Shown in pieces: positions 212 to 38,308 of a DNA stretch of 64,000 bases; positions within the stretch are counted from its first letter, which is position 1, and each line of letters begins with the position of its first letter. Under the pieces are notes generated by a model. The model had not been told where the DNA came from. It worked only from the letters and a program-made list of their open reading frames with translations, and did no database searches. The DNA comes from Xenophilus aerolatus (GTDB lineage: Bacteria > Pseudomonadota > Gammaproteobacteria > Burkholderiales > Burkholderiaceae_C), in the NCBI GenBank assembly GCA_030418545.1, contig QAIB01000012.1:1-64000 (forward strand), written 5' to 3'. The position numbers and the translations under genes are program-made.

Positions 212-304
212 GCAGCTGTGCCGCGTGCGGCAACAGCTGCTTCGTGAACTGACTCGCTGCAGCTGTTCGAGCGCAGCGCGAAGCGCGTAGCGAGTTCTGC
301 AGCG
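212..304 (+). repeat. Two-hairpin intergenic element, copy 1
   Basis: Hairpin A (212-240) pairs GCAGCTGT with ACAGCTGC around a GCCG/CGGC extension. After the linker ttcgtgaactgact, hairpin B (255-304, 50 nt) pairs CGCTGCAG (255-262) with CTGCAGCG (297-304). The loop of B holds overlapping gagcg/gcgaag/gcgtagcgag text. Three other copies are at 33438-33529 (reverse), 33707-33793 and 38215-38308. Their arm sequences differ but still pair. Confidence 0.75.
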
Positions 305-380
305 CACCCCGACAGCGTCGCGGCGCAGGTCGCCCGCAGCGAAGCGGAGGGTCGCAGCCAGCAGGGTCGCCTTTTCTTTG

Positions 381-414
381 CCTACTTTCTTTTGGCGAAG
401 CAAAAGAAAGTAGG
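381..414. repeat. Perfect 14-bp inverted repeat, hairpin with GCGAAG loop
   Basis: CCTACTTTCTTTTG (381-394), loop GCGAAG (395-400), CAAAAGAAAGTAGG (401-414): all 14 pairs match. Its AT-rich arms stand out from the GC-rich surroundings. From memory, similar CTACTTTCTTTTG palindromes are common in Comamonadaceae and Xanthomonadaceae genomes. Only one copy is present here. It could act as a bidirectional terminator or a protein-binding site. Confidence 0.75.
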
Positions 415-539
415 TGCGCCGCCGGGCGCACATCCCGGCTCCTGCGTCTCACCCCTGAGCAAGGCCCAAATTCATAAAGAAAAAGTGCCCCAAGCGCCCG
501 CCCGGCAACCACCACCCGCTATGGTTTCAATAGCAAACA

Positions 540-2057
540 CTACTGAAACGCCACCTCCGCAAAACTCCTCAACTTCCGACTGTGCAGTCGCCCCGACCCC
601 TGCGACCGCAACACCTCCACCGCCTTGATCCCGATCCGCAGATGCTGCTCCACCCGCTCCCGGTAGAAGTGGTTCGCCATCCCGGGCAGCTTGATCTCGC
701 CGTGCAGCGGCTTGTCGCTCACGCACAGCAAGGTGCCGTACGGCACGCGGAAGCGGAAGCCGTTGGCGGCGATGGTGGCGCTTTCCATGTCGAGCGCCAC
801 GGCGCGGCTCTGGCTGAAGCGGCGCTGCGGCTCGTTGTTGGGCAGCAGTTCCCAGTTGCGGTTGTCGGTGCTGGCCACGGTGCCGGTGCGCATGATGGTC
901 TTCAACTCGGCGCCCTGGCACTGCGTGACCTCGGCCACCGCCGCCTCCAGCGCCAGCTGGATCTCCGACAGGGCCGGGATCGGCACCCACAGCGGCAGCT
1001 CCTCGTCCAGCACATGGTCCTCGCGCACGTAGGCATGCGCCAGCACGTAGTCGCCCAGCTGCTGCGTGTTGCGCAGGCCCGCGCAGTGGCCCAGCATCAT
1101 CCAGGCATGCGGGCGCAGCACGGCGATGTGGTCGGTGATCGTCTTGGCGTTGGCCGGCCCGACGCCGATGTTGACCATGGTGATGCCGCTGCAGTCGGCC
1201 CGCACCAGGTGGTAGGCCGGCATCTGCGGCAGGCGACCCGGCGGCGTGCCCTGCATGGCATTGAGCGCGGCGGCGAAGCTGCCCATCGCCTCGGGCTGCA
1301 GGTTGTGGCGCCGCGTCACCACGTTGCCGGGCTCGATGAAGGCGATGTATTCGCTCGACTCGTCGGCCATCGCCTCGTGGCCCAGCCGCACGAACTCGTC
1401 GATGTAGAACTGGTAATTCGTGAAAAGCACGAAGTTCTGGTACCAGTCGGGCGCGGTGCCGGTGTAGTGGCGCAGGCGCTGCAGCGAATAGTCCACCCGC
1501 GCGGCCGTGAACAGCGCCAGCGGCTCGGCTTCGCCGGGCTGGGTGCGGTGCGTGCCGTTGGCGATGCCGTCGTCCATGGCGCCGAGGTCGGGCAGGTCGA
1601 ACACGTCGCGCATCAGCGCGCGGCGCTGCGGCGACATGGTGCCTTCGATGTGGTCGTTCTCGGCGAAGGAGAAATGCACCGGGATCGGCTGCGTGCTGGT
1701 GCCCACCTCGAGCTCGATCTGGTGGTTCTCGAGCAGCAGGCGGAACTGGTCGAGGTAGTAGCGCGCGAAGAGGTCCGGCCGCGTGAGCGTGGTCTCGTAG
1801 CGGCCCGGCCCGGCCACGAAGCCGTAGCTCAGCCCCGAATTGGCCGGCGTGGTGTGGCGCGACACCGTGTGCGTGTGCACCCGCACGAAGGGGTAGCAGG
1901 CCCGCACCCGGCCCGGCAGCGTCTCGCCGGCCACGAAGCGCTGCATCGAGTCGCGCAGGTGCGCCAGGCCGCCGTCGTAGATGCGCTGGACCTGCGCGAG
2001 GGCGGCAGCGGCGTCGGTGTAGCGGACGGGGGCGACGAAGGGCGGCATGTAGGGCAT
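540..2057 (-). CDS. amn: AMP nucleosidase
   Basis: Cytoplasmic enzyme that hydrolyses AMP to adenine and ribose 5-phosphate, draining the AMP pool. The product is 505 residues from the ATG at 2057 (MPYMPPF); an in-frame upstream start at 2084 would add nine residues. The N-terminal half is the AMP nucleosidase-specific domain. The C-terminal half is a purine nucleoside phosphorylase fold with MVNIGVGPANAKT, MMLGHCAGLR, a DMESAT motif and the terminal SDKPLHGEIKLPG segment typical of Amn. Length is close to that of E. coli Amn (484). It lies about 50 bp downstream of the glutathione reductase gene on the same strand and could share its transcript. Identity is well supported by continuous family motifs. 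Confidence 0.93.
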   Translation of the reverse strand: MPYMPPFVAPVRYTDAAAALAQVQRIYDGGLAHLRDSMQRFVAGETLPGRVRACYPFVRVHTHTVSRHTTPANSGLSYGFVAGPGRYETTLTRPDLFARYYLDQFRLLLENHQIELEVGTSTQPIPVHFSFAENDHIEGTMSPQRRALMRDVFDLPDLGAMDDGIANGTHRTQPGEAEPLALFTAARVDYSLQRLRHYTGTAPDWYQNFVLFTNYQFYIDEFVRLGHEAMADESSEYIAFIEPGNVVTRRHNLQPEAMGSFAAALNAMQGTPPGRLPQMPAYHLVRADCSGITMVNIGVGPANAKTITDHIAVLRPHAWMMLGHCAGLRNTQQLGDYVLAHAYVREDHVLDEELPLWVPIPALSEIQLALEAAVAEVTQCQGAELKTIMRTGTVASTDNRNWELLPNNEPQRRFSQSRAVALDMESATIAANGFRFRVPYGTLLCVSDKPLHGEIKLPGMANHFYRERVEQHLRIGIKAVEVLRSQGSGRLHSRKLRSFAEVAFQ

Positions 2058-2109
2058 GGCGGCATTGTGCAATGGGCATGCCACCCGCCCGTGACGGCCG
2101 GGCGGCGGC

Positions 2110-3468
2110 TCAGCCCGGCATCGGCTCGCGCATGGTCACGAACTCCTCGGCCGACGTGGGGTGGATGCCGATGGTGCCGTCGAAGTCGGCCTTGGTCGCG
2201 CCCGCACGCATGGCCACGGCAAAGCCCTGCACGATCTCGCCCGCTTCGGCGCCGACCATGTGCAGGCCCACCACGCGGTCGGTCTTGACGTCCACCACCA
2301 GCTTCATGAAGGTGCGTTCGCTTCGCCCCGACAAGGTGTGGCGCAGCGTCTTGAACTCGCTGCAGAAGATGCGGACCTTGCCGAAGCGCGCCCGCGCCGC
2401 GGCCTCGGTATAGCCGCAGGTGCCGACGTTGGGGTGGGTGAAGACCGCCGTCGGCACGTACTCGTAGTCCATGCGGCGGCGCCCTTGCGCGAACAGCCGG
2501 TCGACCACCACCATCGCCTCGGCCAGCGCCACCGGCGTGAGCGGCAGGCGCGTGGACACGTCGCCCACCGCCAGCACCGAGGGCACCGAGCTGCGGTACT
2601 GGTCGTCGACCACGATGGCGCCGCCCTCGTCGAGCGCGACGCCTGCGGCCTCCAGCCCCATGCCGGCGGTGTTGGGCCGCCGGCCGGTGGCGAAGAGCAC
2701 CGTGTCGGCCGCCAGCTGCTGGCCGCGCGAGAGCGTGACCAGCACACCCTCGCCGGTGCGGCGCAGCATCTCGACCTGCACGTTCAGCCGCAGGTCGATG
2801 CCGGTCTTGCCCATCTCCTGCGCGAGGAAGTGGCGCACGTCCTCGTCGAAGGTGTCGAGCACGTGCGCCTTGCGCTGCAGCAGCGTCACTTCGGCCCCCA
2901 GGCCGCGGAAGATGGAGGCGAACTCGCACGCGATGTAGCCGCCGCCCACCACCACCAGGCGGCGCGGGAACTCGGGCAGGTCGAACATGGCGTCCGACAC
3001 CACCCCGTGCTCGCGCCCGCCCACCTCGGGCACGAAGGGCATGCCGCCGGTGGCCACCAGGATGTGCTGCGCCGTGTGGCGCTGGCCGTCGACCTGCACC
3101 GTGTGGCCGTCGACCAGCTCGGCCCAGGACGGGATGAGCCGCACGCCCGCGCCGTCGAGCAGGCCCTGGTAGACGCCGTTGAGCCGGCGGATCTCCTGCG
3201 CGCGCTGCGCCTTCAGGCGTTGCCAGTCGAAGCGCGGCGCCTCGGGCAGCGTCCAGCCGTAGCCGGGCGCTTCGGCAAAGGACTCGGCATAGCCGGCCGC
3301 ATAGCTGTAGAGCTTCTTCGGGATGCAGCCCACGTTGACGCAGGTGCCGCCCAGTTCGGCGCACTCGGCCAGCGCGACGCGGGCGCCGCGCTGGGCCGCC
3401 ATGCGGGCCGCGCGCACGCCGCCGCTGCCGCCGCCGATGACGAAAAGGTCGAAGTCGTACTGAGGCAT
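2110..3468 (-). CDS. gor: Glutathione-disulfide reductase
   Basis: Cytoplasmic FAD flavoenzyme that reduces oxidised glutathione with NADPH. The 452-residue product starts at MPQYDF. It shows the FAD-binding GGGSGGVRAAR near residue 12, the redox-active disulfide Cys43/Cys48 in GGTCVNVGCIPKK, and a second dinucleotide fold at VVVGGGYIACEFA. It also has the ATGRRPNT motif, the VGDVS FAD segment near residue 301 and the C-terminal catalytic HPTSAEE around His436. The open frame extends well upstream without homology, so the ATG at 3468 is preferred. It is divergent from a decayed PEP-synthase-like gene and upstream of amn on the same strand. Other class I pyridine-nucleotide disulfide oxidoreductases are possible, but the CVNVGC motif and length fit Gor best. 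Confidence 0.93.
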   Translation of the reverse strand: MPQYDFDLFVIGGGSGGVRAARMAAQRGARVALAECAELGGTCVNVGCIPKKLYSYAAGYAESFAEAPGYGWTLPEAPRFDWQRLKAQRAQEIRRLNGVYQGLLDGAGVRLIPSWAELVDGHTVQVDGQRHTAQHILVATGGMPFVPEVGGREHGVVSDAMFDLPEFPRRLVVVGGGYIACEFASIFRGLGAEVTLLQRKAHVLDTFDEDVRHFLAQEMGKTGIDLRLNVQVEMLRRTGEGVLVTLSRGQQLAADTVLFATGRRPNTAGMGLEAAGVALDEGGAIVVDDQYRSSVPSVLAVGDVSTRLPLTPVALAEAMVVVDRLFAQGRRRMDYEYVPTAVFTHPNVGTCGYTEAAARARFGKVRIFCSEFKTLRHTLSGRSERTFMKLVVDVKTDRVVGLHMVGAEAGEIVQGFAVAMRAGATKADFDGTIGIHPTSAEEFVTMREPMPG

Positions 3469-3549
3469 GTCCAGGGTCTCCGCGGGTCGGCCCGCCGGCG
3501 CACTGTAGCCGCCCGCGCGCCCGGCCGCGGCGCCGCTACAGTCGCCGCC

Positions 3550-4538
3550 ATGCTGCTCCGCCCTGCCCTTCTCGCCGCCCTGGCCCTGCTGGCATTCGCC
3601 CCCTTGGGCACCTCGGCCCAGCTCGCGCGCAAGCCCTCGTTCTACGATCGGCAGGCCGGTACCGCCGCCGCGCCGCAGGGCACGCCGGGCGTGGGCGAAC
3701 TGCCCGCGCTGGCCAGCCGGGCCGACTTCGACCGGCTGGCGCGCGTCTACGACGCCGGCACGCCGCTGGAACTGCCGCATGCGCTCTTCGTAATCGACCG
3801 CCGCGCCGCGCCGGCGCGCATGCACTTCGTCAACACGCCGCGCTACGCCCTGCACGAACGCTTCGTTCGCGACACCCGCCTGCTGCGCGAGGCCGGCCGC
3901 GCCGCGCTCAACCGCAACTACCGCGCCCCCGACCGGCGCTTCGTCTTCGGCACCCCGGGCTGGCAGGCGGCCGCCAACACCTTCAGCTACGAATTCTGGG
4001 AAGGCGACCGGCTGACGCCCGAGCTGCTCGCGCTGACGCAGCGCACGCTGGCCGCGACCTTCTACGCGCCGGTGCGCTTCAAGGCCAACTCGACGCAGCA
4101 GGAGGCCGTGGCGCAGGCGGCCGGCATCGAGGCGCTGACGCAGGCGGCGCTGATCCAGGACCAGCCCTACCTGCCGATGAACCGCGGCCGGGCCGTCGGG
4201 CGGCTGCGCATCGTCCCGTCGGTCGACGCGGCGCGCGACCTGGCGCCGACCGACATCGTGGTGCTGCGCGAGGTGCCGATCAGCCTGCCGCCGGTCGCGG
4301 GCGTGCTGACCGAGCGGCCCTCGACGGTGCTCTCGCACGTCAACCTGCTGGCCAAGGGCTGGGGCATTCCCAACGCCTACGTGCGCGATGCCGCGCAGGC
4401 CCTGGCGCGCTGGGACGGCCAGTGGGTGCAAAGCGCGCCTTCGGCGGCCGCGACCAGGACATCGAATGGGCGGTGCGGGGCGAACGGCTCGTGATCCTGC
4501 AGGCGCGACCTTTCGTCACCGCGCCGTCCAGGCCCTGA
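3550..4538 (+). pseudogene. Decayed PEP synthase-like gene (swivel domain kept, ATP-grasp domain lost)
   Basis: The open frame from ATG 3550 to the stop at 4494 gives a signal-peptide-like N-terminus and then a conserved region rich in FVNTPRYALHERF, TFSYEFWEGDRLTP and FKANST. It continues into a PEP-utilising mobile domain with LTERPSTVLSHVNLLAKGWG, where the active-site His is expected. After RWDGQWVQ the frame turns to unrelated sequence. From about 4433 the other frame reads KRAFGGRDQDIEWAVRGERL and then VILQARPF, ending at TGA 4536-4538. That is the C-terminal signature of the PPDK nucleotide-binding domain. The coding text between the two is missing, so an internal deletion with frame change is inferred. 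The remnant should not phosphorylate pyruvate. Confidence 0.8.
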
Positions 4539-4555
4539 AAAGCCGAAGTGCGATC

Positions 4556-4589
4556 GGCCTGCGCCGCCCGACGGACGGGCGCCGCGGCC
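4556..4589. terminator. Possible bidirectional terminator between convergent genes
   Basis: GC-rich dyad with core CGCCCG/CGGGCG around acgga and outer GGCC/GGCC arms. It lies in the 75-bp gap between the pseudogene and the convergent dctM gene. No strong T-run follows, so this is a weak call. Confidence 0.3.
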
Positions 4590-4613
4590 GAATTCGTCAC
4601 ATCCGTTACCCAT

Positions 4614-6614
4614 TCATTTGTAGAGCAGCTGCGGTAGCCACAAGCCGATCTGCGGCCAGATGTAGAGCAACACGATCGCGAGGATCTGGATGCCCATGAA
4701 GGGCAGCATGCCCAGGAAGATCTGGTTGAGGGTGACGTGCGGCGGGCTCACGCCCTTGAGGTAGAAGGCCGCCATCGCGACCGGCGGCGAGAGGAAGGCG
4801 GTCTGCAGGTTGAGCGCGACCAGCAGTCCGAAGAAGAGCGGGTCGACGCCGAAGTTGTCCAGCAAAGGGATGAAGATGGGCATGAAGATCACGATGATCT
4901 CGGTCCACTCCAGCGGCCAGCCCAGGAGGAAGATGATGACCTGGCTCAGCAGCAGGAACTGCACCTGGCTCAGGTTCATCGACATCACCCACTCCTCCAC
5001 CAGCTGCTGGCCGCCCAGCAGCGCGAAGGCGGCCGAGAAGATGGCCGAGCCGACGAAGAGCCAGCACACCATGGCCGAGGTCTTGGCCGTGAGGAAGACC
5101 GATTCCTTGAGCACCGCGAGGTTGAGCCGCCGGTACGCCGCCGCCAGCAGCATGCCGCCCAGCGCGCCCATGGCCGCCGCCTCGGTGGGGGTGGCCAGCC
5201 CCAGCACGATGGAGCCCAGCACCGCGAGGATGAGCAGCATCAACGGGAAGAAGGACGCCAGCAGCATCTTGAAGATCTCGAGCCGCGCGAAGCTGGCGAA
5301 CAGGTAGAACAGCACCGTCAGGCAACCCAGCACCGAGAACACCACCCACCACCAGGTGGGGGCGGGGCGCGTGCCTGCTTCCGCCACGGGTGCGGCCTCG
5401 TCCGCTGCGGCCGCCGCAGGCGCCGGGGCGGCGCGCTCGGCCCCAGGCGGCTCGGCCAGGGCGCTGCCGCCCGCAGACGACGCCGGCGGCGGCTGCAGCC
5501 CGCCCTCCTGCGGTGGCTCGGCCAGGCCGCCGTCCTGCGGAGGCTCCTGAAGGCCGCCCTCGGCCGACGGCTCCTGCAACCCGCCGGACCGGGGCGGCTC
5601 CGCGAGGCCACCGCTGCCGTCGGCGGCACTGCCGGCGCGCTCGGCACCGATCTCCTGGATCTCGTAGCGCTCCTGCGCCGGCGCCGTGGTCACCGCGCGC
5701 CAGCTGCCCGCAGCCAGCAGCACGAACACCAGTGCCGGCAGCGCCAGGATGAAACTCTGGCGCGCGATGTAGCCGATCGGCACCTCGGCGTTGCGCCGGC
5801 CCTTCATCAGCCGCAGCAGTGCGTTGGCCTGCGGGCTGTCGGCCAGGCGTTCGGTCAGCGGCGGCAGCGGCACGCGCCGCGCCTCGGCGGACAGGGGCGG
5901 CGCCCACTGCGGCTTGAGCCAGGCGATGAGGATCACGTACAGGATGTAGAGCGTGGCCAGCATCAGCCCTGGGAAGAAGGCGCCCGCATACAGCTGCACC
6001 ACCGAGACGCCGGCCGTCGCGCCGTACACGATCAGCAGCACCGACGGCGGGATCAGGATGCCCAGGCAGCCACCCGCGGTGATGGCGCCGGCGGCCAGCG
6101 GCACGCTGTAGCCGCCGCGCAGCATCGCCGGCAGCGCCAGCAGCCCCATCAGCGTGACCACGGCGCCGACGATGCCGGTGGCGGTCGCGAAGATCGTGCA
6201 GGTGACCAGCGTGGCCACGGCCAGCGCGCCGGGCAAGCGCGCCATCGCCAGGTGCAGGCTGCGGAACAGCGACTCGATGAGATTGGCCCGCTCCACCAGG
6301 TAGCCCATGAAGACGAACAGCGGGATGGCGATGAGCACGTCGTTGGCCATCGTCTTGTAGGCCGACTGCACCATGAGGTCGAGCGTGCGCGTGGTGTCGC
6401 GCTCGTAGGCCAGCCAGGTGAAGAGCATGCCCATGCCCATGAGCGTGAAGGCGGTGGGAAAGCCCAGCATGATCGCCACCACCACCAGCGAGAGCATCAG
6501 GAGGCCCAGGTGCCCGTTGGTGATGGTGTCGGCGCGCAGCAGCACGGTGGCGGCCAGCACCACGATCAGCGCCATGAAGGACAGGCCGAACCAGAGTTCC
6601 TTTCGGATGTTCAT
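4614..6614 (-). CDS. dctM: TRAP transporter large permease (DctM) with an inserted nonapeptide-repeat loop
   Basis: Inner-membrane large subunit of a TRAP transporter, which drives solute uptake with an ion gradient. The 666-residue protein has many hydrophobic helices and DctM-type stretches such as AIPLFVFMGYLVERA, TATGIVGAVVTLMG, GGCLGILIPPSVLLIVYG, LATPTEAAAMGALG and FLSPPVAMAAFYLKG. Residues about 305-420, between a membrane helix ending near 304 and the next starting near 421, are an unusual hydrophilic insertion. It contains five tandem nonapeptides of the GGLQEPPQD type and an Ala/Pro-rich tail, which makes the protein much longer than classic DctM (about 425). The start overlaps the dctQ stop by four bases. 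It probably cotranscribes with dctP and dctQ. The substrate cannot be read from sequence; an organic acid is likely. Confidence 0.9.
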   Translation of the reverse strand: MNIRKELWFGLSFMALIVVLAATVLLRADTITNGHLGLLMLSLVVVAIMLGFPTAFTLMGMGMLFTWLAYERDTTRTLDLMVQSAYKTMANDVLIAIPLFVFMGYLVERANLIESLFRSLHLAMARLPGALAVATLVTCTIFATATGIVGAVVTLMGLLALPAMLRGGYSVPLAAGAITAGGCLGILIPPSVLLIVYGATAGVSVVQLYAGAFFPGLMLATLYILYVILIAWLKPQWAPPLSAEARRVPLPPLTERLADSPQANALLRLMKGRRNAEVPIGYIARQSFILALPALVFVLLAAGSWRAVTTAPAQERYEIQEIGAERAGSAADGSGGLAEPPRSGGLQEPSAEGGLQEPPQDGGLAEPPQEGGLQPPPASSAGGSALAEPPGAERAAPAPAAAAADEAAPVAEAGTRPAPTWWWVVFSVLGCLTVLFYLFASFARLEIFKMLLASFFPLMLLILAVLGSIVLGLATPTEAAAMGALGGMLLAAAYRRLNLAVLKESVFLTAKTSAMVCWLFVGSAIFSAAFALLGGQQLVEEWVMSMNLSQVQFLLLSQVIIFLLGWPLEWTEIIVIFMPIFIPLLDNFGVDPLFFGLLVALNLQTAFLSPPVAMAAFYLKGVSPPHVTLNQIFLGMLPFMGIQILAIVLLYIWPQIGLWLPQLLYK
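5478..5612 (-). repeat. Five tandem nonapeptide-coding repeats inside dctM
   Basis: Residues 335-379 read GGLAEPPRS, GGLQEPSAE, GGLQEPPQD, GGLAEPPQE, GGLQPPPAS: five consecutive 27-bp units. The units differ at silent and coding positions, so this is not a very recent slippage product. The segment lies in an extramembrane loop of the permease. Confidence 0.85.
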
Positions 6615-7234
6615 GGTGCGCGCCTCTCCTGGGCCACGACCACCGCGTCGAGTGCGGCGATGTCGGCGTCCTTCACGTGCACCATCTCCTTGAGCTTGTC
6701 GACGTCGACCTCCTGCACGTCGTCCTCGCGCGAGGGCCAGGCGCCGCGCTGGATGCACTGCACGCAGCGGATGATCTCGACGATGCCCTGCAGCAGCAGC
6801 GTGACGCCGGCCAGCGGGATCACGTACTTGAAGGGGTAGAGCGGCAGCGGGTCGGCCGAGAAGGTGGTTTCGCGGATCGCCAGCGACTCGCCCGCGTAGA
6901 TCCACCCTGCCCACGTCAGCGCGACGATGCCGGGAAGGAAGAACACGATGTAGAGCACGAGGTCGACGATGGCCTGCGTGCGCGGCTGGAAGAAGCCGTA
7001 CAGCACGTCGCCGCGCACGTGGCCGTTCTTGGCGAGCGTGTAGGCCCCGGCGGTCATGAACAGGGTGCCGTAGAGCATGATCTGCGCGTCGAGCACCCAG
7101 GCATGGGGCCGGTTGAGCACGTAGCGCGAGAACACCTCCCAGCTGATCAGCAGCGTGAGCAGCAGGGCGCACCAGGCGAAGGTCTTGCCGATCCAGGTCG
7201 AGAGCCGGTCGACCCCGAGGAGAAAGGACTGCAT
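6611..7234 (-). CDS. dctQ: TRAP transporter small permease (DctQ)
   Basis: Small inner-membrane subunit that partners with DctM in TRAP uptake. The 207-residue product starts at MQSFLLGVDR. Its four hydrophobic segments include FAWCALLLTLLISWEVFSRY, which carries the family-typical EVFSRY turn, then LFMTAGAYTLAKNGHVRGDV, VLYIVFFLPGIVALTW and YVIPLAGVTLLLQGIVEIIRC. The C-terminal 40 residues are charged and longer than in minimal DctQ. An AGGAG sits a few bases before the ATG. The stop overlaps the dctM start as ATGA, indicating translational coupling. The dctP gene is about 110 bp upstream on the same strand. Confidence 0.9.
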   Translation of the reverse strand: MQSFLLGVDRLSTWIGKTFAWCALLLTLLISWEVFSRYVLNRPHAWVLDAQIMLYGTLFMTAGAYTLAKNGHVRGDVLYGFFQPRTQAIVDLVLYIVFFLPGIVALTWAGWIYAGESLAIRETTFSADPLPLYPFKYVIPLAGVTLLLQGIVEIIRCVQCIQRGAWPSREDDVQEVDVDKLKEMVHVKDADIAALDAVVVAQERRAP

Positions 7235-7346
7235 GGCAGGCAGGCCGCACGCGCGGCCGGTGAAGGACACGACCAGGAGGGCCGCACCACGGGCGCGGGC
7301 CCTCCCCCGATCGGCGCTGGGCGCCGCGCCTGAGGGCCTCGGGGCC

Positions 7347-8465: not shown

Positions 8466-8529
8466 CCGTCTTGTCTCCGTCTGGTTGGTTGCGTCTTTCT
8501 CTTCCGTGGCCGGCGGGCCGGCGCGCACA

Positions 8530-8560
8530 CTGTTGGGTCGCGCGCGACGCGATCCAACAG
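8530..8560. promoter_or_regulatory. Dyad in the divergent dctP/rhodanese intergenic region
   Basis: CTGTTGGGTCGCG and CGCGATCCAACAG flank a five-base centre, with 12 of 13 pairs complementary. It lies 65 bp upstream of the dctP start and 110 bp upstream of the rhodanese start. It could be an operator or an RNA hairpin. There is no direct evidence for either. Confidence 0.35.
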
Positions 8561-8670
8561 GGTTTTCACTGCCTGGTGAAGAGCACCGCCGCGCGGCGGC
8601 GCGCTACCCTGTGGGTTGCAGCGCAACATCGCGGCAAAGACCGCACGGACTCGAAGGACGAATCGACACC

Positions 8671-9099: not shown

Positions 9100-9133
9100 G
9101 CGGCGCGCATCGCACCGCCGCTCCACAGGAATA

Positions 9134-9940: not shown

Positions 9941-10030
9941 GCTGGGCTCGGCTGGGCTGGCTTCGGGCCCTTTGCCTTGGCCCTTCATGGGAGTGCGCGG
10001 AGGCTGCGGTCCTGAACCCGGCCGGCGGCG

Positions 10031-12194: not shown

Positions 12195-12232
12195 CGGCCG
12201 ATTGTCGGCGTGGTGCTGTCGGCCGTTGGGTT

Positions 12233-12293
12233 GCTATCGATTCGATAGCTGCATGCGCAGGACGGGCGGGCGCCGCTGGCCGATTTGCATCGA
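12233..12293 (+). repeat. GCTAT-type 17-nt hairpin repeat, copy 1
   Basis: GCTATCGATTCGATAGC (12233-12249) is a near-perfect palindrome followed by ctgcatgcgcagg and a GC-rich second part ending in ccgatttgcatcgaa. Four copies occur in this window, each with a 17-nt palindrome. This one lies between the helicase start and the ArsR gene end. Confidence 0.7.
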
Positions 12294-29874: not shown

Positions 29875-29905
29875 GCGGCATGCCGGCCATGGCCGCTGCG
29901 GTCGC

Positions 29906-30904: not shown

Positions 30905-31067
30905 GGGAGGAATCCGTTTGTCTCGTGGTCGGGTTGGCGAGCGCCGCGCGTGCACGCGCGCGAGGGCCGGAGTGTGCCGCAGCAGCGCGGGTCGGGCCGG
31001 TGCCGCTTCGCGATGACCCTGCTGCCGCGCGCCGATGGGCGCACGCGTCAGGCGGGCCGGGCTTCGT

Positions 31068-31137
31068 TGCTATGAATTCGATAGCTGAATGCCCAAGCGA
31101 GGCGGCAGCCTGCGCCCGATTTTGCCGATGTCTTTCG
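31068..31137 (+). repeat. GCTAT-type 17-nt hairpin repeat, copy 2
   Basis: GCTATGAATTCGATAGC (31068-31084) pairs GCTAT with ATAGC, followed by tgaatgccc, a GC-rich second part and gattttgccgatgtctttcgaa. It occupies the 326-bp divergent gap between the Bug gene (start 30904) and tctB (start 31231). The rest of that gap shows only a purine-rich ribosome site (gaggtggag) before tctB and no other obvious signal. Confidence 0.65.
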
Positions 31138-31230
31138 AAGGGCTCTACGCATTAGTCCGTAGCGACCGGTCAGCCGGGCGTCAGGCGCCGGCGACGACGC
31201 TCGTCAGTTCCTAGTCAGAGGTGGAGACAT

Positions 31231-31719
31231 ATGGCAATCAAGAGCCAGGCAGACTTTTTTTCAGGTGCGATGTTCGTCATCGTGGGTGGCGTGTTCGCCA
31301 TCGGCGCGACCAACTACAACGTCGGCGACGGTGCCCGCATGGGCCCGGGCTACTTCCCGTTGATGCTGGGCATCCTGCTGGCCCTGCTCGGGGCGGCCAT
31401 CATCTTCCAGTCGCTGGTGGTAGAGACGACCGACGGCGGCAGGATCGGCCGCTGGGCCTGGAAGCCCCTGGCCTTCGTGCTCGGGGCCAACCTGGCCTTC
31501 GGCGTGCTGCTCGGGGGGCTGCCCAGCATCGGGCTGCCGGCGATGGGGCTGATCATCGCGATCTTCGCGCTGACCTTCATCGCCAGCCTGGCGGGCACCC
31601 AGTTCCGCTTCAAGGACACGCTGATCCTGGCCATCGTGCTGGCCGCGGGCAGCTACGTCGCCTTCATCCTGGCGCTCAAGCTCCAGATCCAGGTCTGGCC
31701 GACCTTCATTTCGGGTTGA
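31231..31719 (+). CDS. tctB: Tripartite tricarboxylate transporter small membrane subunit TctB
   Basis: 162-residue inner-membrane protein with four hydrophobic helices: AMFVIVGGVFAIGATN, LMLGILLALLGAAIIFQSL, GLPAMGLIIAIFALTFIASLAG and TLILAIVLAAGSYVAFILAL. The ARMGPGYFPLMLGILLALLG motif is diagnostic of TctB. GAGGTGGAG lies eight bases upstream of the ATG. tctA begins 16 bp after its stop. With the divergent Bug receptor it makes a full TTT system. Confidence 0.93.
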   Translation: MAIKSQADFFSGAMFVIVGGVFAIGATNYNVGDGARMGPGYFPLMLGILLALLGAAIIFQSLVVETTDGGRIGRWAWKPLAFVLGANLAFGVLLGGLPSIGLPAMGLIIAIFALTFIASLAGTQFRFKDTLILAIVLAAGSYVAFILALKLQIQVWPTFISG

Positions 31720-31735
31720 GCGAGGACGAGCGACC

Positions 31736-33253
31736 ATGGACTTCAATCTTTTCGCCAACCTGGCCACGGGCTTCGGCGTCGCGGTCACCTGGACCAACCT
31801 GCTGTACTGCCTGATCGGCTGCATCCTGGGCACGCTGATCGGCGTGCTGCCGGGCATCGGCCCCGTCGCGACCATCGCGATGCTGCTGCCCGCGACCTAC
31901 GCGTTGCCGCCGGTGTCGGCGCTGATCATGCTGGCCGGCATCTACTACGGCGCGCAGTACGGTGGGTCGACCACCGCCATCCTGGTCAACCTGCCGGGCG
32001 AGTCGTCCTCGGTGGTGACGTGCATCGACGGCTACCAGATGGCGCGGCAGGGGCGAGCGGGTCCGGCGCTCGCGGCGGCCGGCCTCGGTTCTTTCTTCGC
32101 CGGCTGCGTGGGCACCATCATCCTGGCCGCCTTCGCGCCGCCGCTCACCGAACTGGCCTTCAAGTTCGGCCCGGCCGAGTACTTCAGCCTGATGGTGCTG
32201 GGCCTGATCGGCGCGGTGGTGCTGGCCTCGGGTTCGCTGCTCAAGGCGATCGCGATGGTGGTGCTGGGCCTGCTGCTCGGCCTGGTGGGCACCGACGTGA
32301 ACTCGGGGGTGGCGCGTTTCTCCTTCGATATCCCCGAACTGACCGACGGCATCGGCTTCATCGTGATCTCGATGGGCGTCTTCGGCTACGGCGAGATCAT
32401 CGGCAACCTGTCGCAGCCGGACGAGGACCGCGAGGTCTTCACCAGCAAGGTGACGGGCCTGTGGCCCACCGGCGACGACTTCAAGAAGATGGCGCCGGCC
32501 GTGCTGCGCGGCACGACGCTGGGCTCGGCCCTGGGCATCCTGCCCGGCGGCGGTGCGCTGCTGGCCTCCTTCGCGTCCTACGCGCTGGAGAAGAAGCTCA
32601 AGATGAGCCCGAACGAAGTCGCCTTCGGCCGCGGCAACATCCGCGGTGTGGCGGGCCCCGAGTCGGCCAACAACGCCGGCGCCCAGACCTCCTTCATCCC
32701 GCTGCTGACGCTGGGCATCCCGCCCAACCCGGTGATGGCGCTGATGGTCGGTGCGATGACCATCCACAACATCCAGCCCGGCCCGCAGGTGATGACCAGC
32801 AACCCCGAGCTGTTCTGGGGCCTGATCGCCTCGATGTGGCTGGGCAACCTGATGCTGATCGTGCTGAACCTGCCGCTGATCGGCATGTGGATCAAGCTGC
32901 TGAAGGTGCCTTACCGCCTGCTGTTCCCGGCCATCGTGCTGTTCTGCGCGATCGGCGTGTACTCGACCAACAACAACACCTTTGACGTGTGGATGGTCGC
33001 GATCTTCGGCTTCATCGGCTACGTGTTCATCAAGCTGCGGGTGGAACCGGCGCCGCTGCTGCTGGGCTTCATCCTGGGGCCGATGATGGAAGAGAACCTG
33101 CGCCGCGCCCTGCTGCTCTCGCGCGGCAGCTGGAGCGTGCTGGTCACGCGGCCGATCTCGGCCGGCCTGCTGGTCGCTGCGCTGGCGCTGCTGGTGATCG
33201 TGCTGCTGCCGTCGGTGAAGTCCAAGCGCGAAGAGGCTTTCGTCGAAGAGTGA
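31736..33253 (+). CDS. tctA: Tripartite tricarboxylate transporter large permease TctA
   Basis: 505-residue polytopic inner-membrane permease, close to the family standard. It has the two TctA signature loops: IGVLPGIGPVATIAMLLPATY with YYGAQYGGSTTAILVNLPGESSSVVTCIDGY near residues 40-100, and ILPGGGALLASFASYALEKK with GVAGPESANNAGAQTSFIPLLTLGIPPNPVMALM near residues 265-345. Many helices follow, ending at LLVAALALLVIVLLP. It forms the translocation channel with TctB and receives solute from the divergent Bug receptor. The following 690 bp is gene-free. Confidence 0.95.
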   Translation: MDFNLFANLATGFGVAVTWTNLLYCLIGCILGTLIGVLPGIGPVATIAMLLPATYALPPVSALIMLAGIYYGAQYGGSTTAILVNLPGESSSVVTCIDGYQMARQGRAGPALAAAGLGSFFAGCVGTIILAAFAPPLTELAFKFGPAEYFSLMVLGLIGAVVLASGSLLKAIAMVVLGLLLGLVGTDVNSGVARFSFDIPELTDGIGFIVISMGVFGYGEIIGNLSQPDEDREVFTSKVTGLWPTGDDFKKMAPAVLRGTTLGSALGILPGGGALLASFASYALEKKLKMSPNEVAFGRGNIRGVAGPESANNAGAQTSFIPLLTLGIPPNPVMALMVGAMTIHNIQPGPQVMTSNPELFWGLIASMWLGNLMLIVLNLPLIGMWIKLLKVPYRLLFPAIVLFCAIGVYSTNNNTFDVWMVAIFGFIGYVFIKLRVEPAPLLLGFILGPMMEENLRRALLLSRGSWSVLVTRPISAGLLVAALALLVIVLLPSVKSKREEAFVEE

Positions 33254-33437
33254 CGTTGGGGGCCCTGGGGCCCGCCTGTTCGTCGCGTGGGGCCCGTCTG
33301 GGGCCCTTTTCTTTGTCTTGCGCGTTCGGGGTCGCTGCTGGGGCGATGGGCCGGCCCTGGTGCCGGTGAGGGCGCGCCGGCGCTTCGGTGGGGTGGTCGG
33401 CTTCGCCGACTGCCCTGCGGTGCTCGCGCGAACGGGC

Positions 33438-33529
33438 CGCGGCAGAACTCGCTTCGTTCACTGCGTTCACTGCGCTCGGACAGCTGCCGCGAGTCAGATC
33501 ACGAAGCGGGCCTGTCCTTCGGCAGGCCC
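33438..33529 (-). repeat. Two-hairpin intergenic element, copy 2 (inverted)
   Basis: Read on the minus strand, hairpin A (33508-33529) pairs GGGCCTG with CAGGCCC around CCGAAGGA. Hairpin B (33438-33491) pairs CGCGGCAG with CTGCCGCG. Its loop has the variant gagcgcagtgaacgcagtga text. The order and spacing match the other copies. Confidence 0.75.
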
Positions 33530-33706
33530 GCAGCCCGCCCGCGCTGCGCTCCTCGGCACCCCACAGGCGCGCCGACACGCCCTCACCGGCACCAGGGCCT
33601 GCGTTAGGGGTTGTTCTCCACCACGGCTGCTTCCACGCGTCGGCGCCGGGCCGAGGGTGCGAGGGCGATTTCGGGGCCGGCGAGGCGCGCAGGGCGGGCG
33701 GGCTGC

Positions 33707-33793
33707 AGGCCTGCCGAAGGACAGGCCTGCTCGTAAACTGACTCGCGGCAGCTGTTTGAGCGTAGCGCGAAGCGCGTAGCGAGTTCTGCCGCG
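33707..33793 (+). repeat. Two-hairpin intergenic element, copy 3
   Basis: Hairpin A (33707-33728) pairs AGGCCTG with CAGGCCT around CCGAAGGA. The linker gctcgtaaactgact leads to hairpin B (33744-33793, 50 nt), where CGCGGCAG pairs with CTGCCGCG. It is the mirror partner of copy 2, and they share the arms of hairpin B. Confidence 0.75.
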
Positions 33794-33946
33794 GCCCGCC
33801 TGCCCGAGCACCGCAGCGGAGCCGGCCCGCTGGGCCGGCCGGCCCCGTATGAGCCCGCGCGCCCTGGGCCCGGCGCCGGCGCGCGCCCCAGCCGATACCA
33901 ACACGGCGGACGATCCAATGCCCGCCTCAAACCAGCCGCGCCGGCC

Positions 33947-35113
33947 TCACTGCGCCACGTAGTCCGACACCACCTTCCACTTCCCATCCACGATCTGCGA
34001 CAGCCGCGACGCGTTGTTGCCCAGCCGCTGGCTTGCGGTGAAGGTCATCTTGGGCGAGCCGAACATGTCGGGCGGGAAGGTGCTGGCGTCCATGACCTTG
34101 ATGAAGGAGTCGGTGCTCAGGTTGGCACCGGCCTTCTGCGCCACCTGCGCGAAGGTGTCGATGATCATGTAGCCGTAGACCGAGAACACCGTCGGGTCCT
34201 CGTTGAACTTGGTCTTGTACTTGTTGGCCCAGAAGCGGATCTTCGGATCGGCCTCGTCGGTGTAGGGGTTCTGCACCGTCATGGTGGCGTACATGCCATC
34301 CATGGCCTTGCCGCCGAGCTTGTGGATGAGGTCGGTGTAGGCCGCGCTGGAACCGAGGAAGGTCGGGTTGAAGCCCGTCTTGCGCGACTCGCCGATGGTG
34401 CCGATGGTCTCGCGGATGATGGTGCCCAGCACCACCAGGTCGCAGCCGGCCGCCTTCATCTTCGCGACCTGCGAGCTGAAGTCGGTCGCGCCGCGCTTGA
34501 ACGAGGTCTTCTCCGCGAGCTCCATGCCCACCGTTTTCAGGCCCGCCTCGGCGCCGCGCTGCACCTCGAGCCCGAACTCGTCGTCCTGGTAGATGGTGCA
34601 GACCTTCTTGGCGCCCTTGTCCTTCACCATCTTGGGCAGCGCCATGCGGATCTGGTCGTAGTAGGTGGCCGCGAACGAGTACTTGAGCCGGTTCAGCGGC
34701 TCGTACATCTCCCGCGCTGCGGTGATCGGCAGGAAGTTGATGACGTTCTTGTCGAACTGCACCGGCATCGCCGCCATGTTCTGCGCCGTACCGATGTGGC
34801 CGGCCATGATGAAGATCTTGTCCTGGTTGACCAGCTTCTGCGCCGCCAGCACGGCCTTCTTCGGGTCGTAGCCCGAATCCTCCACGTACAGCTTGAGCTT
34901 GCGGCCGTTGATGCCGCCCTGCTCGTTGATCTCGTCCACGCGCAGCTGCATGCCGTTGCGCGACTGCTTGCCGAAGCCCGCGAGCGGGCCCGACAGGTCC
35001 TGGATGGTGCCGATGCGGATCTCGTCCTTGCTCACGCCCTGCTGGGCGTGCGCGAAGGAGGCCCCCAGCGCCAGGACGGCGATGGCCAGGGTGGCGGGGC
35101 GGAAGGTCTTCAT
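33947..35113 (-). CDS. livK: Branched-chain amino-acid-type ABC substrate-binding protein
   Basis: 388-residue periplasmic type I binding protein with signal MKTFRPATLAIAVLALGASF and cleavage near AHAQ. The mature part has EIRIGTIQDLSGPLAGFGKQ, GMQLRVDEINEQGGINGRKLKLYVEDSGYDPKKAV, VINFLPITAAREMYEPL, VCTIYQDDEFGLEVQRG and TSFKRGATDFSSQVAKMKAAGCDLVVLG, all Leu/Ile/Val-family marks. GGAGAC lies ahead of the ATG. It is the last gene of a livH-M-G-F-acs-livK operon. Because a CoA ligase sits in the operon, an aromatic or fatty acid is as likely a ligand as an amino acid. Confidence 0.92.
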   Translation of the reverse strand: MKTFRPATLAIAVLALGASFAHAQQGVSKDEIRIGTIQDLSGPLAGFGKQSRNGMQLRVDEINEQGGINGRKLKLYVEDSGYDPKKAVLAAQKLVNQDKIFIMAGHIGTAQNMAAMPVQFDKNVINFLPITAAREMYEPLNRLKYSFAATYYDQIRMALPKMVKDKGAKKVCTIYQDDEFGLEVQRGAEAGLKTVGMELAEKTSFKRGATDFSSQVAKMKAAGCDLVVLGTIIRETIGTIGESRKTGFNPTFLGSSAAYTDLIHKLGGKAMDGMYATMTVQNPYTDEADPKIRFWANKYKTKFNEDPTVFSVYGYMIIDTFAQVAQKAGANLSTDSFIKVMDASTFPPDMFGSPKMTFTASQRLGNNASRLSQIVDGKWKVVSDYVAQ

Positions 35114-35144
35114 GGTGGCTGTCTCCTGTCGTTGATGGGAACCG

Positions 35145-37034
35145 CTAGGCGCGATACATGGCTTCGATCTGCGGCGCGTACTTGGCCTGCACCAGCTTGC
35201 GCTTGAGCTTCATCGTCGGCGTGAGCTCCTCGTCCTCGGCCGACAGCTGCGTGTCGAGCAAGAAGAACTTCTTGATCTGCTCGACCCGCGCGAACTTCGC
35301 GTTCACCCGATCGATCTCGCCCTGGATCAGGTCCTGCACCTCCTGCGCGCGCGTGAGGCTGGCGTAGTTGCTGAAGGGCACGTCGTGGTCCTGCGCAAAC
35401 TTCTCCACGTTCTCCTGGTCGATCATGATGATCACCGTCAGGTAGGGCTTCGCATCGCCGATGACCACCGCATCGGTCACGTAGGGGCTGAACTTGAGTT
35501 CGTTCTCCCACTCGCTCGGCGTGATGTTCTTGCCGCCCGCCGTGATGATGATGTCCTTCATTCGGTCGGTGATGCGGAAATACCCGTCCTCCTCCATCTG
35601 CCCGACGTCGCCCGTGTGCAGCCAGCCCTCGGCGTCGATGGTCTCCGCCGTCTTTTCGGGCTGGTTGAGGTAGCCCATGAAGACGTTGGGGCCGCGCACC
35701 AGGATCTCGCCCGTGGCGGGATCGATGCGCACCTCGTTGTAGCCCGCGGCGGGCCCGATCGAACCCGGCTTGATGCGCGCCGCCGGCACGCCGGTGGACG
35801 CGCCGCAGCTCTCGGTCATGCCCCACACCTCCAGCATGGGCACGCCCAGCGAGAGGTACCACTTGACCAGCTCGGGCGAGATCGGCGCCGCCCCCGTGAC
35901 GAGAAAGCGCGCGCGGTGGATGCCGATGAGCTTGCGCACGTTGTCCAGCACCAGCCAGCGCGCGAGCCGGAAGCGGAGCTTCAGCCCGGCGTCGACCGCT
36001 TCGCCCGCCAGCACCTTGTCGGCGATCTGCCGGCCCACGCCGATGGCCCAGGCGTAGGCGGCCTGCTGCACGCTGCTGGCCTCCTTCAGCGCGATCATCA
36101 CGCCGGAGTAGAACTTCTCCCACACCCGCGGCACGGCGGTGAAGACGGTCGGCGCAATCTCCCGCACGTTCTCGGGCACCGTCTCGGGGTTCTCGACGAA
36201 GTTGAGCACCGAGCCCGTGTACATCGCGAAGTACTCGCCGCCCATGCGCTCGGCCACGTGGCACAGGGGCAGGAAGCACATGCGCTCGTCGCGCTCGTCC
36301 TGCGCCACCAGCGTGTTGTAGCCCCGCATGGTGTAGACCAGTCCATGGTGCGAGTGCATCGCGCCCTTGGGCTTGCCGGTGGTGCCCGAGGTGTAGATCA
36401 GGATGGCCAGGTCCTCCGGCCGGCAGCCGGCGACGCGCTCGCGCACGGCTTGCGGATGCGACTGCAGGTGCTCGCGGCCGAGGGCGCGCAGGGCATCCAG
36501 GCTGATGACGCCCGGGTCGTCGAGCTCACGCAGGCCCTCCATGTCGAACACGACGATCTTGCGCAGCAGCGGCAGGCGATCGCGCACCTCCAGCGCCTTG
36601 TCGAGCTGCTCGTCGTCTTCCACGAAAAGCAGTGTGGTGCGCGAGTCCTCGCACAGGTAGTGCACCTGCGAGGCCGCATCGGTCGGGTAGATGCCGTTGG
36701 CCACGCCGTTGCAGCTGAGCACCGCGAGGTCGCACAGCACCCATTCGACGACGGTGTTCGACAGGATGGAGGCACATTCGCCGCGCGCGAAGCCCAGCAC
36801 CAGCAGGCCGGCGGCGATCTCCCGCACCGCTTCGGCCGTCTGGCGCCAGCTCCAGCTGCGCCAGATGCCCAGTTCCTTCTGGCGCATCCACACGGCGTCG
36901 CCGCGCAGATCCACGGCGTTCCAGAACACGGCGGGAATGGTGTCGCCCGGCACGGCGATGTCGGTGCGCGGCTGCAGGTGGCCAAGGTCCCAGAGCCCGG
37001 CCGGTGCGCGGAGGGAGGAAGGGGCTGCGCTCAT
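35145..37034 (-). CDS. AMP-dependent synthetase (long-chain acyl-CoA ligase-like)
   Basis: 629-residue adenylate-forming enzyme that would activate a carboxylic acid to its CoA thioester at the expense of ATP. The P-loop is ILIYTSGTTGKPKGAMHSHHG near residue 211. VWGMTESCGAST near residue 401 carries the ATP-contacting motif, GWLHTGDVGQMEEDGYFRITDRMKDII near residue 472 holds the hinge region, and GGKNITPSEWE precedes the catalytic C-terminal lobe. It resembles the FAA1-type long-chain ligases often found inside liv operons. The stop of livF overlaps its start by four bases, and livK follows by 31 bp. The substrate is presumably what the transporter brings in. Confidence 0.92.
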   Translation of the reverse strand: MSAAPSSLRAPAGLWDLGHLQPRTDIAVPGDTIPAVFWNAVDLRGDAVWMRQKELGIWRSWSWRQTAEAVREIAAGLLVLGFARGECASILSNTVVEWVLCDLAVLSCNGVANGIYPTDAASQVHYLCEDSRTTLLFVEDDEQLDKALEVRDRLPLLRKIVVFDMEGLRELDDPGVISLDALRALGREHLQSHPQAVRERVAGCRPEDLAILIYTSGTTGKPKGAMHSHHGLVYTMRGYNTLVAQDERDERMCFLPLCHVAERMGGEYFAMYTGSVLNFVENPETVPENVREIAPTVFTAVPRVWEKFYSGVMIALKEASSVQQAAYAWAIGVGRQIADKVLAGEAVDAGLKLRFRLARWLVLDNVRKLIGIHRARFLVTGAAPISPELVKWYLSLGVPMLEVWGMTESCGASTGVPAARIKPGSIGPAAGYNEVRIDPATGEILVRGPNVFMGYLNQPEKTAETIDAEGWLHTGDVGQMEEDGYFRITDRMKDIIITAGGKNITPSEWENELKFSPYVTDAVVIGDAKPYLTVIIMIDQENVEKFAQDHDVPFSNYASLTRAQEVQDLIQGEIDRVNAKFARVEQIKKFFLLDTQLSAEDEELTPTMKLKRKLVQAKYAPQIEAMYRA

Positions 37035-37804
37035 CGCCAGGTCTTCTTTTTCTTCCAGCGGCGTTCGCCGCGCACACCGTCGTCCTGCAGGCCGAGGTAG
37101 AACTCCTTGATGTCGTCCTTCTCGCGCAGGCGCTCGCAGCTGTCTTCCATGACGATGCGCCCGTTCTCGAGCACGTAGCCGTAATCGGCCGCATTGAGGG
37201 CCATGTTGGCGTTCTGTTCCACCAGCAGGATGGTGGTGCCGCGCTCGCGGTTGATGCGCACGACGATCTCGAAGATCTCCTTGGTGAGCTTGGGCGAGAG
37301 GCCCAGCGAGGGCTCGTCGAGCAGGATGAGCTGCGGCGCGGCCATGATGGCGCGCGAGATGGCCAGCATCTGCTGCTGTCCGCCCGAGAGCAGGCCCGCG
37401 TCCTGCGCGGCGCGCTCGCGCAGGATGGGGAAGTAGCCGAACACGGTCTCGATGTCACATGCGACGCCGTCGCGGTCGCGGCGCGTGTAGGCGCCCATGA
37501 GCAGGTTGTCCTTCACCGACAGCAGCGGGAACACCTCGCGCCCCTCGGGCACGTGCGACAGGCCCTGCTGCACGATGAAGGCCGGGTCCTTGGCGGTGAT
37601 GTCCTGGCCCTTGAAGTGGATCGACCCCTTGCGCGGGTCGATGATGCCGGAGATGGTCTTGAGGATCGTCGTCTTGCCCGCGCCGTTGCTGCCCAGCACG
37701 GTGGCGATCTCCCCCTGACGCACCTTCAGGCTCACGCCGCGGATCGCCTTGATGGGGCCGTAGGCGCTCTCGACGTTGAGGAGTTGGAGGACTTCGGTGG
37801 TCAT
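37031..37804 (-). CDS. livF: Branched-chain amino-acid-type ABC ATP-binding protein LivF
   Basis: 257-residue cytoplasmic ATPase with Walker A GSNGAGKTTILKT, Q-loop VPEGREVFPLLSVKDN, signature LLSGGQQQMLAISRAI, Walker B LILLDEPSLGLSPKL and H-loop VEQNANMALNAADYGYVLENGRI. The VPEGR and VEQN motifs distinguish LivF from LivG. The C-terminal SCERLREKDDIKEFYLGL is the LivF tail. The stop overlaps the CoA ligase start by four bases. Upstream of its ATG lies a 619-bp repeat-rich gap before livG, which is unusual because livG and livF are normally adjacent. Confidence 0.94.
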   Translation of the reverse strand: MTTEVLQLLNVESAYGPIKAIRGVSLKVRQGEIATVLGSNGAGKTTILKTISGIIDPRKGSIHFKGQDITAKDPAFIVQQGLSHVPEGREVFPLLSVKDNLLMGAYTRRDRDGVACDIETVFGYFPILRERAAQDAGLLSGGQQQMLAISRAIMAAPQLILLDEPSLGLSPKLTKEIFEIVVRINRERGTTILLVEQNANMALNAADYGYVLENGRIVMEDSCERLREKDDIKEFYLGLQDDGVRGERRWKKKKTWR

Positions 37805-37974
37805 GCTTGGGCGCCTTCCGACAAGTCGCCCGACGGGTGCGCCAGCGCTGGGAGGCCGGACGATGGGGAGTCGGCATGCGACCGGGCGCGCCGATGGCGA
37901 GGGGCAGGCGCCGGCTCGCTCAGACGCCGCGGGTCGCTGCGCGACTCCCCTGCGCTGCTCGCGACAGGCGGGGT

Positions 37975-38007
37975 CCGCGCAAACTCGCTTCGCTCAAACA
38001 TGCGCGG
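37975..38007 (+). repeat. Single-hairpin element with conserved loop, copy 2
   Basis: CCGCGCA (37975-37981) pairs perfectly with TGCGCGG (38001-38007), enclosing aactcgcttcgctcaaaca (37982-38000), the loop also seen at 16-34. Flanks gcggggtc before and ccct after are shared with copy 1, while the arms differ. Confidence 0.65.
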
Positions 38008-38214
38008 CCCTCTTCCCGCCTGCCGCTGCGCTGCTCGGCCGCGCCGATTCGCGATCCGGCGCCCGCCCCTCGCCATCGTGGAAGCCGGGTGCCGCATCCC
38101 CTCGCTTTCACGCCGTGCATTCCGAGGACGTGGTTCGACCGCAGGCGGAGCCCGGTGCGCGGTGCGGGCTGGGCACGCCCCTGTGCGTCGCCGAGAAGCG
38201 CAGGGCGGGGCGAG

Positions 38215-38308
38215 GCACGCCTGCCGAAGGACAGGCGTGCTTCGTGCACTGACTCGTCGCAGCTGTCTGAGCGGAGTGAACGCAGTGAACGCAGCGAGTT
38301 CTGCGACG
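38215..38308 (+). repeat. Two-hairpin intergenic element, copy 4
   Basis: Hairpin A (38215-38240) pairs GCACGCCTG with CAGGCGTGC around CCGAAGGA. The linker ttcgtgcactgact leads to hairpin B (38255-38308), where CGTCGCAG pairs with CTGCGACG. The loop carries gagcggagtgaacgcagtga text like copy 2. Confidence 0.75.

Follow-up and report, generated by a model that had tools for sequence, protein, structure and literature searches.

Paired foldback modules between genes of Burkholderiales: a candidate family of mobile intergenic repeats

We analysed a 64,000-nucleotide (nt) window of a Xenophilus aerolatus genome (assembly GCA_030418545.1, contig QAIB01000012.1, positions 1 to 64,000), in which a first-pass annotation had marked four copies of an intergenic element made of two hairpins, A and B, with covarying arms. 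Folding of wider stretches reveals a giant nested stem around each reported copy, which forms its inner core. Two such foldback halves, each about 250 nt long, stand head-to-head and face outward, with the 5' ends of both facing the centre, in a unit of roughly 500-800 nt. These units have covarying paired arms, fold on one particular strand, are dispersed in many copies, are present at a gene junction in some genomes and absent from it in others, and are nearly absent from gaps between divergent genes. Our favoured explanation, to which we give about an even chance, is a family of non-autonomous mobile intergenic repeats that resembles the REPIN/BIME repeats and has far larger folded ends.

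The four copies are present at 212-304, 33438-33529 (minus strand), 33707-33793 and 38215-38308 with the arms originally described, and the loop CCGAAGGA of hairpin A is common to three of them. The shared plan also stands, except that the linker, given as containing ACTGACT, reads ATCTGACT in the copy at 33438-33529. A pattern spanning the linker and the start of hairpin B, ACTGACTCGN{0,6}GCAGCTGT, has three matches in the window (mean 0 in 100 shuffles), and the copy with the ATCTGACT linker is not among them. What had been taken for a whole two-hairpin element holds as an inner core; the real unit is the larger foldback half, which comprises outer arms, a third hairpin, an asymmetric motif, an inner stem, hairpin A, the linker CTGACTCG and hairpin B, with a three-way junction as part of each half. 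The third hairpin lies on the 3' side of the core (GCCCCCGAAGGGGGC in copy 4), and the conserved asymmetric motif reads GCGCAG on the 5' side and CGAGCAYCGCAG on the 3' side. In copies 2, 3 and 4 the extra arms are paired over most of their length, and their sequence differs between copies. The first-pass annotation did not foresee these giant arms, the pairing of halves, the strand asymmetry or the presence and absence between species.

The window holds three pairs, one of them cut by the contig start. Scores below are from R1, a covariance model built from four full cores of the host genome.

about 1..90, minus strand: shortened half of pair A, cut by the contig start; hairpin-B-like part at about 10-42, seen by eye
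181..413, plus strand: variant "c1-type" half of pair A (reported copy 212-304); core 193-328, R1 82.1 bits
33349..33602, minus strand: type II half of pair B; core 33415-33549, R1 161.7 bits, E 9.1e-28, outer arms located
33603..33632, no strand: unconserved centre of pair B, about 30 nt, flanked by the 5' ends of both halves
33633..33889, plus strand: type I half of pair B; core 33687-33816, R1 151.7 bits, arms located
37891..38078, minus strand: shortened half of pair C, hairpin A lost, missed by the first-pass annotation; core 37950-38031, R1 34.5 bits, limits at the arm ends
38147..38391, plus strand: half of pair C (reported copy 38215-38308); core 38198-38331, R1 148.1 bits, arms located

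The shortened half of pair C has orthologues in loci L128 and L131, and part of it (37976-38039) is matched at 80% by positions 10-73 at the contig start (repeat D9). The arms of its partner at 38147..38391 change together in the comparison with X. aerolatus. The c1-type half of pair A has a different hairpin A and an extra outer hairpin at 382-413, with relatives on contigs C6, C2 and C32 of the same genome.

The inverted arrangement recurs beyond the window. In the first set of loci, which gave 93 R1 matches of which the five weakest (E 0.41-0.87) were dropped, all 42 neighbouring matches less than 900 nt apart, from 41 sources, run reverse-then-forward; one of the 42, at 2228-2483 of L134, is doubtful. 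A second set, chosen by eye, supplied 39 further pairs, again inverted. The exceptions are G165, with two minus-strand matches followed by a plus-strand match, and family f20, whose matches look solitary among only 11 candidates scored per genome. In the host genus the two halves are usually of different types, type I (GGGCGATTT.../...GAGCCC) and type II (CCTGTG.../...CACYGAAGC): 30 of the 42 pairs join type I with type II, none joins two halves of one type, and 12 are not fully classed by these patterns. Most of the apparently single halves that were viewed have a degenerate partner. By eye, 8 of 14 have a collapsed partner that has lost its inner core, two have a shortened one (L164, L162), three have no clear partner (L159, L166, L174) and one is cut by a contig end (L167); in collapsed or shortened partners the outer stem stays and the inner core is gone or reduced. 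The centres between halves are unconserved, their length varies, and in relatives they contain other repeats; those of L121, L143, L146 and L148 have been entered by TTCGACAGGCTCAGCCCGAACGG-type palindromes, CCCTCTCCC hairpins and short tandem runs. No autonomous copy with a gene in its centre occurs among the 42 pairs, in which the longest centre measures 463 nt between cores; no wider search was made.

We next consider the covariation of the paired arms, for which two alignments were used. Alignment A4 (92 distinct cores) was fitted to the structural model and so leans towards it; 97.9% of its cells are paired, 27 of 28 pairs change on both sides, and 643 cells carry double changes, compared with 168.9 after shuffling. 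Alignment A5, made without structure, takes its pairs from window copy 2 alone and comprises 57 of 93 matches from one of the searches that supplied the second set (56 distinct rows), near copies and variant types being excluded. Here 89.7% of cells are paired, the inner stem being the worst-paired helix (79.5%), and 26 of 28 pairs change on both sides; double-change cells number 323 (100.3 shuffled), and the covariation score is 0.515, compared with 0.175 after shuffling and at most 0.158 with slid partners. None of 500 shuffles reaches any of the five observed values. Kinship alone can lift sequences above such shuffles in the absence of structure, a concern that the slid control answers in part. 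The covariance-model search and covariation statistics proposed in the first-pass annotation thus yielded many copies and strong covariation, and its suggestion that pairing is maintained is borne out, also on the alignment not fitted to the structure. The same tendency appears between orthologues: over all ordered comparisons, double Watson-Crick changes make up 696 of 3,727 changed paired cells (18.7%) and 128 of 3,303 in the slid control (3.9%), counts that rest on single-sequence folds and include false pairs. As the letters vary from gap to gap and the folded shape is constant, the fold, and not its letters, seems to be what is kept.

Mismatches within the stems indicate which strand folds. 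Stems were folded with G-U pairs forbidden, isolated mismatches were counted, and both strands were treated alike; halves at one locus in related species are non-independent, and the L134 match at 2368 (E 0.19) was excluded. Read on the outward strand, 106 halves contain 174 G·T, 54 A·C and 314 other mismatches. Restricted to arms with at least two flanking pairs on each side and to distinct contexts, the ratio of G·U to A·C is 59:11; it is 38:14 in the inner part of halves, and 17:1 in the upstream-facing halves of tandem gaps, which are antisense to the neighbouring genes. Perfect stems closed by a three-base loop tell the same story, with GNA outnumbering TNC by 26:3 in the first set and by 27:10 in the second (L092 and L099 excluded), as distinct contexts; in control, element-free DNA the ratio is 30:24 among 498 contexts. 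Together, the excess of G·U over A·C mismatches and of GNA over TNC triloops shows that both halves fold on their outward strand, regardless of the direction of the neighbouring genes. The RNA counterpart of a GNA mini-hairpin is weaker. In DNA, GNA or GNNA loops closed by at least two G-C pairs form extraordinarily stable mini-hairpins, according to the parts of PMC4686876 that were consulted. We lean tentatively towards single-stranded DNA as the folded molecule.

Copies are numerous in the host genome and extend to its relatives. The host genome carries 21 R1 matches with E at most 1, of which 13 have E at most 1e-3 and eight are weak (E above 1e-3). Several contigs of G000 (C1, C3, C22, C32, C46 and C6) end in or beside elements, which may mean that the assembly was interrupted by near-identical copies. 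In a first survey of 60 relatives, 25 have an R1 match: all 14 genomes of the host genus, 11 of 22 in the rest of the family and none of 24 in other families. Larger surveys found the core in 140 of 299 genomes (69 of 141 genera) of the host family and in 12 of 300 genomes across the order, 5 of the 12 lying in two other families; as few candidates were scored per genome, copy numbers in these surveys are lower bounds. Four loci of other families, viewed by eye, have the same core and quite different arms; one of these families contributes L296, with 33-nt arms that are 94% complementary. The exact pattern occurs in 61 named stretches, with titles mostly of Comamonadaceae or other Burkholderiales, and 52 of them have the downstream part within 60 nt. 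Eight stretches that lack this part were dropped (L019, L025, L031, L035, L042, L044, L057, L066), L020 was kept despite lacking it, and L039 and L051, from the window's species, were excluded, leaving 51. In L051 (Xenophilus sp. E41) both pattern matches stand at the window's spacing, 4,511 bases.

Some orthologous gene junctions carry the element in certain genomes and are free of it in others. The tssK and tssL genes overlap at ATGA with both frames open in genomes G005 and G004; in G000, G008 and G013 they are parted by 748-823 bases that contain the element, with TCATGA at both edges, and the element is also seen, in part, in G060 and G012. Similarly, mdtB and mdtC overlap at GTGA in G005 and G001 and at ATGA in G003; G000 and G013 carry an element between them, and G004 carries an element of a different type at the same junction. 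The two types found here (L277 in G004, L270 in G000) may mark a hot spot or the replacement of one by the other. At a third junction, assessed by eye and motif, G011 and G007 carry the element, with one half collapsed in G007, and G010 shows it in part. Seven genomes (G000, G060, G002, G012, G008, G013, G005) have these neighbours side by side with no element, a remnant persists in G006, and the flanking genes differ in G009, G001, G004 and G003. We infer from these sequence comparisons that presence and absence probably reflect insertion.

The elements also avoid one class of gap. By our own gene caller, the 42 pairs of the first set lie in 28 tandem gaps, 13 convergent gaps and one divergent gap; of the second set, 34 pairs with both sides known divide into 17 tandem and 17 convergent with none divergent, and five more are one-sided. 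Without the two host-genus pairs, L092 (the same place as L135) and L099, the second set gives 15 convergent, 17 tandem and no divergent gaps; the right-hand gene call at L123 overlaps the element. Element-free gaps of at least 100 nt at the first-set loci comprise 23 tandem, 5 convergent and 23 divergent of 51. Among the 28 tandem gaps, the downstream start has a type I half next to it in 19 cases, a type II half in 2 and an unclassed one in 7, from few independent loci. Many pairs are orthologous, with the same protein neighbours found across species at hpaD/hpaF, mmsA/acyl-CoA dehydrogenase, livG/livF, tctA/Liv binding protein and other gaps. These names, like hpa, Liv, tssK/tssL and mdtB/mdtC, are tentative and come from reading the protein sequences. 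Directly after the TctA-like gene, an intrinsic-terminator-like hairpin with a T tail at 33289-33307 precedes pair B, so that pair B is not the first terminator of this gene. Two other repeat groups were seen in the window: a 49-nt repeat at 39334-39382 and 40556-40604 (D14; 84% identical, ending CGCGTACGGATGTCC) in successive gaps of one Liv-like transport cluster, and a 57-nt repeat at 12230-12286, 31066-31122 and 43735-43791 (D3) with a GCTAT...ATAGC palindrome, the later copies 74-75% identical to the first.

Comparison with known families places the REPINs nearest in behaviour; statements about published families rest on the parts of the cited papers that were consulted. REPINs are inverted doublets of REPs, described as non-autonomous mobile DNA with a "clover" fold, and these doublets are thought to be moved by a RAYT transposase (PMC3116915); REPs are palindromes of 20-40 bp, many tagged GTAG or CGTC, found mainly in unidirectional and convergent gaps (PMC3733652). 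Like REPIN/BIME repeats, the present family forms inverted pairs of strand-specific palindromes in unidirectional and convergent intergenic gaps, is multicopy and probably non-autonomous, and has a spacer less conserved than its ends. The likeness rests on the inverted modules (the 42 and 39 pairs, with G165 and f20 as exceptions), the strand-specific folds, many copies, locus-specific subfamilies, the avoidance of divergent gaps and presence/absence, the 21 host matches and the empty and filled junctions being consistent with dispersal of a mobile repeat. It ends at size and company: REPs of 20-40 bp lie beside a RAYT gene, whereas the present ends are about 250 nt long with three or more helices and a three-way junction, have stems that vary freely in sequence and, in four loci examined, have no RAYT gene adjoining. 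The family therefore works like REPINs and is not filed as one, its modules being several times larger and without an adjoining RAYT gene in those loci.

Other families are less close. The nearest named repeat of these bacteria, by description only, is BRE (PMC3110155). Small mobile-like intergenic repeats such as ERIC, NEMIS/Correia and RU, several of them palindromic, are 100-200 nt long with conserved sequence and lack paired modules with covarying arms, the two features by which the present family differs from them. Repeats of this group are named in PMC3110155 and PMC2759123. Large structured RNAs of Rfam likewise have covarying helices around conserved loops, yet the 64,000 bases of the window give no Rfam match at the gathering threshold; the best trace in pair B is CRISPR-DR20 (16 bits, E 2.3). 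As for classical MITEs, no autonomous copy was seen among the 42 pairs, and flanks of the form NTGA stand on both sides of filled junctions, any duplication being blurred by divergence. A literature search by title and abstract, mostly outside subscription journals, found no paper describing this plan, and the parts consulted of PMC2267715, PMC8266576 and PMC12306157 contain nothing on these genera. The earlier statement that no described family has this plan accordingly holds for Rfam and the literature searched, with BRE set apart by description alone.

Several observations weigh against a mobile repeat. At filled junctions an exact target duplication is not readable, and presence and absence could also be loss; the same loci are kept across species, which a host function would explain too. 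Plasmid and phage records, searched with one half as query at E 1e-5, gave no match. A Y1/RAYT-like gene (PF01797) occurs in 46 of 60 genomes and as a single copy in 13 of 14 host-genus genomes, and it is present in element-free genomes too; four RAYT-like loci of about 5 kb (G000, G011, G009, G008) contain no core, tail or CGAGCAYCGCAG motif, each having one loose type I pattern match, GGGCGACGT. A link with this gene was rejected, as it stands without an adjoining element in the four loci; in that of G000 (L180, C32:151500-156500) a gltB-like gene, named by reading, lies shortly downstream of the single-copy Y1 gene. The E-values and reach of R1 lean to the host lineage, its four source copies coming from one genome. 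The strand bias is weaker in the second set (G·U to A·C 60:25), of whose 78 halves four are host-genus, and outward-strand folding cannot tell DNA from RNA. Finally, 2,077 of the 3,727 changed paired cells between orthologues are broken (55.7%; 2,176 of 3,303, or 65.9%, in the slid control), and among single arm changes broken ones exceed G·U ones at every divergence (22:19, 165:109, 253:106).

The main rival is a role at RNA ends, which we regard as possible at a tentative level and which could coexist with mobility. Here, read-through from either side would meet the first half antisense and the second half sense, and the sense fold would stop, trim or stabilise the RNA end, so that a pair would act bidirectionally, at 3' ends and inside operons. 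The G·U bias on the outward strand, the near absence from divergent gaps, the conserved positions beside apparent catabolic and transport genes (hpa, mmsA, livG/livF) and the further hairpin that finishes c1-type halves all suit such a boundary. Yet the bias is no weaker in the upstream-facing halves of tandem gaps (17:1), which would be sense only on antisense transcripts; neither window element contains a terminator-like site by pattern scan, the sole one found preceding pair B; GNA prevails among perfect triloops, with RNA tetraloops such as C(TTCG)G outside the 30 commonest loops; and species of the same genus lack the element at the same junctions. A reading as two structured noncoding RNAs, transcribed divergently from central promoters, would account for the folding of both outward strands and is most improbable: the centres are unconserved, can be as short as about 30 nt (33603-33632) and hold unrelated repeats, and no promoter-like site was found by pattern in the two scanned window stretches. 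We also think it unlikely that the element is BRE or a relative of it. BRE is GC-rich and mostly intergenic in Bordetella and Comamonadaceae, as the present family is, with transcripts from one copy and signs of mobility, but it measures about 75-91 bp and often forms direct tandem arrays (PMC3110155), as compared by description with halves of about 250 nt that are usually inverted; L296 has no direct repeat of at least 30 nt.

The covariation itself could come from old palindromes whose complementarity is kept mainly by templated (hairpin) correction between arms, with no selection on the fold, an explanation to which we give little credence. Blocks of arm sequence do differ between orthologues with pairing kept: the host's own livG/livF element and that of X. 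aerolatus differ by 19 double Watson-Crick changes, together with 12 single changes (nine broken, three G·U) and four broken doubles. The course of change speaks for small steps. In the 16 closest ortholog comparisons (at most 10% of arm cells changed), 43 changed cells comprise 22 broken, 19 G·U and only 2 double changes, while doubles make up 14-15% at higher divergence (81 of 534 changed arm cells above 25% divergence); single changes come first and doubles later, as stepwise compensation predicts. Moreover, correction would erase the asymmetric internal motifs that are conserved across genera, and it leaves the strand asymmetry unexplained. Both causes had been put forward in the first-pass annotation; selection on the fold fits better, and one-step conversion between arms is disfavoured by the two double changes among 43.

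In the favoured reading of a mobile repeat family, the unit would consist of two outward-facing foldback modules, each recognised as a folded single strand, the outward one. The fold and a few conserved loops would be kept while stem letters drift by paired changes, and copies would multiply within lineages. Insertion would occur at gene ends and at gene-gene junctions where both reading frames survive; inserted copies would persist for long, and their hairpins may also shape mRNA ends. The folded strand would be single-stranded DNA handled by a transposase encoded elsewhere, and any host role of the elements is likewise putative.

Most known bacterial palindromic repeats are short, and sequence plays a part in their recognition. 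In the present family a three-way-junction fold is kept across the host family, with single cores in two other Burkholderiales families, while most stem letters have changed, which makes an unusually clear trace of selection acting on a folded strand within DNA commonly regarded as spacer. More speculatively, and with doubt outweighing confidence, these elements of Burkholderiales may represent a new class of mobile DNA that inherits its identity as a fold and not as a sequence. Each strand would carry one large multi-helix structure, recognised in single-stranded form by a putative enzyme; the stems would be free to drift by paired changes, and insertion would favour gene 3' ends and overlapping stop/start codons. 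The system offers direct tests of which strand and molecule fold, of what moves the element, and of the effect of parting the overlapping genes tssK/tssL and mdtB/mdtC.

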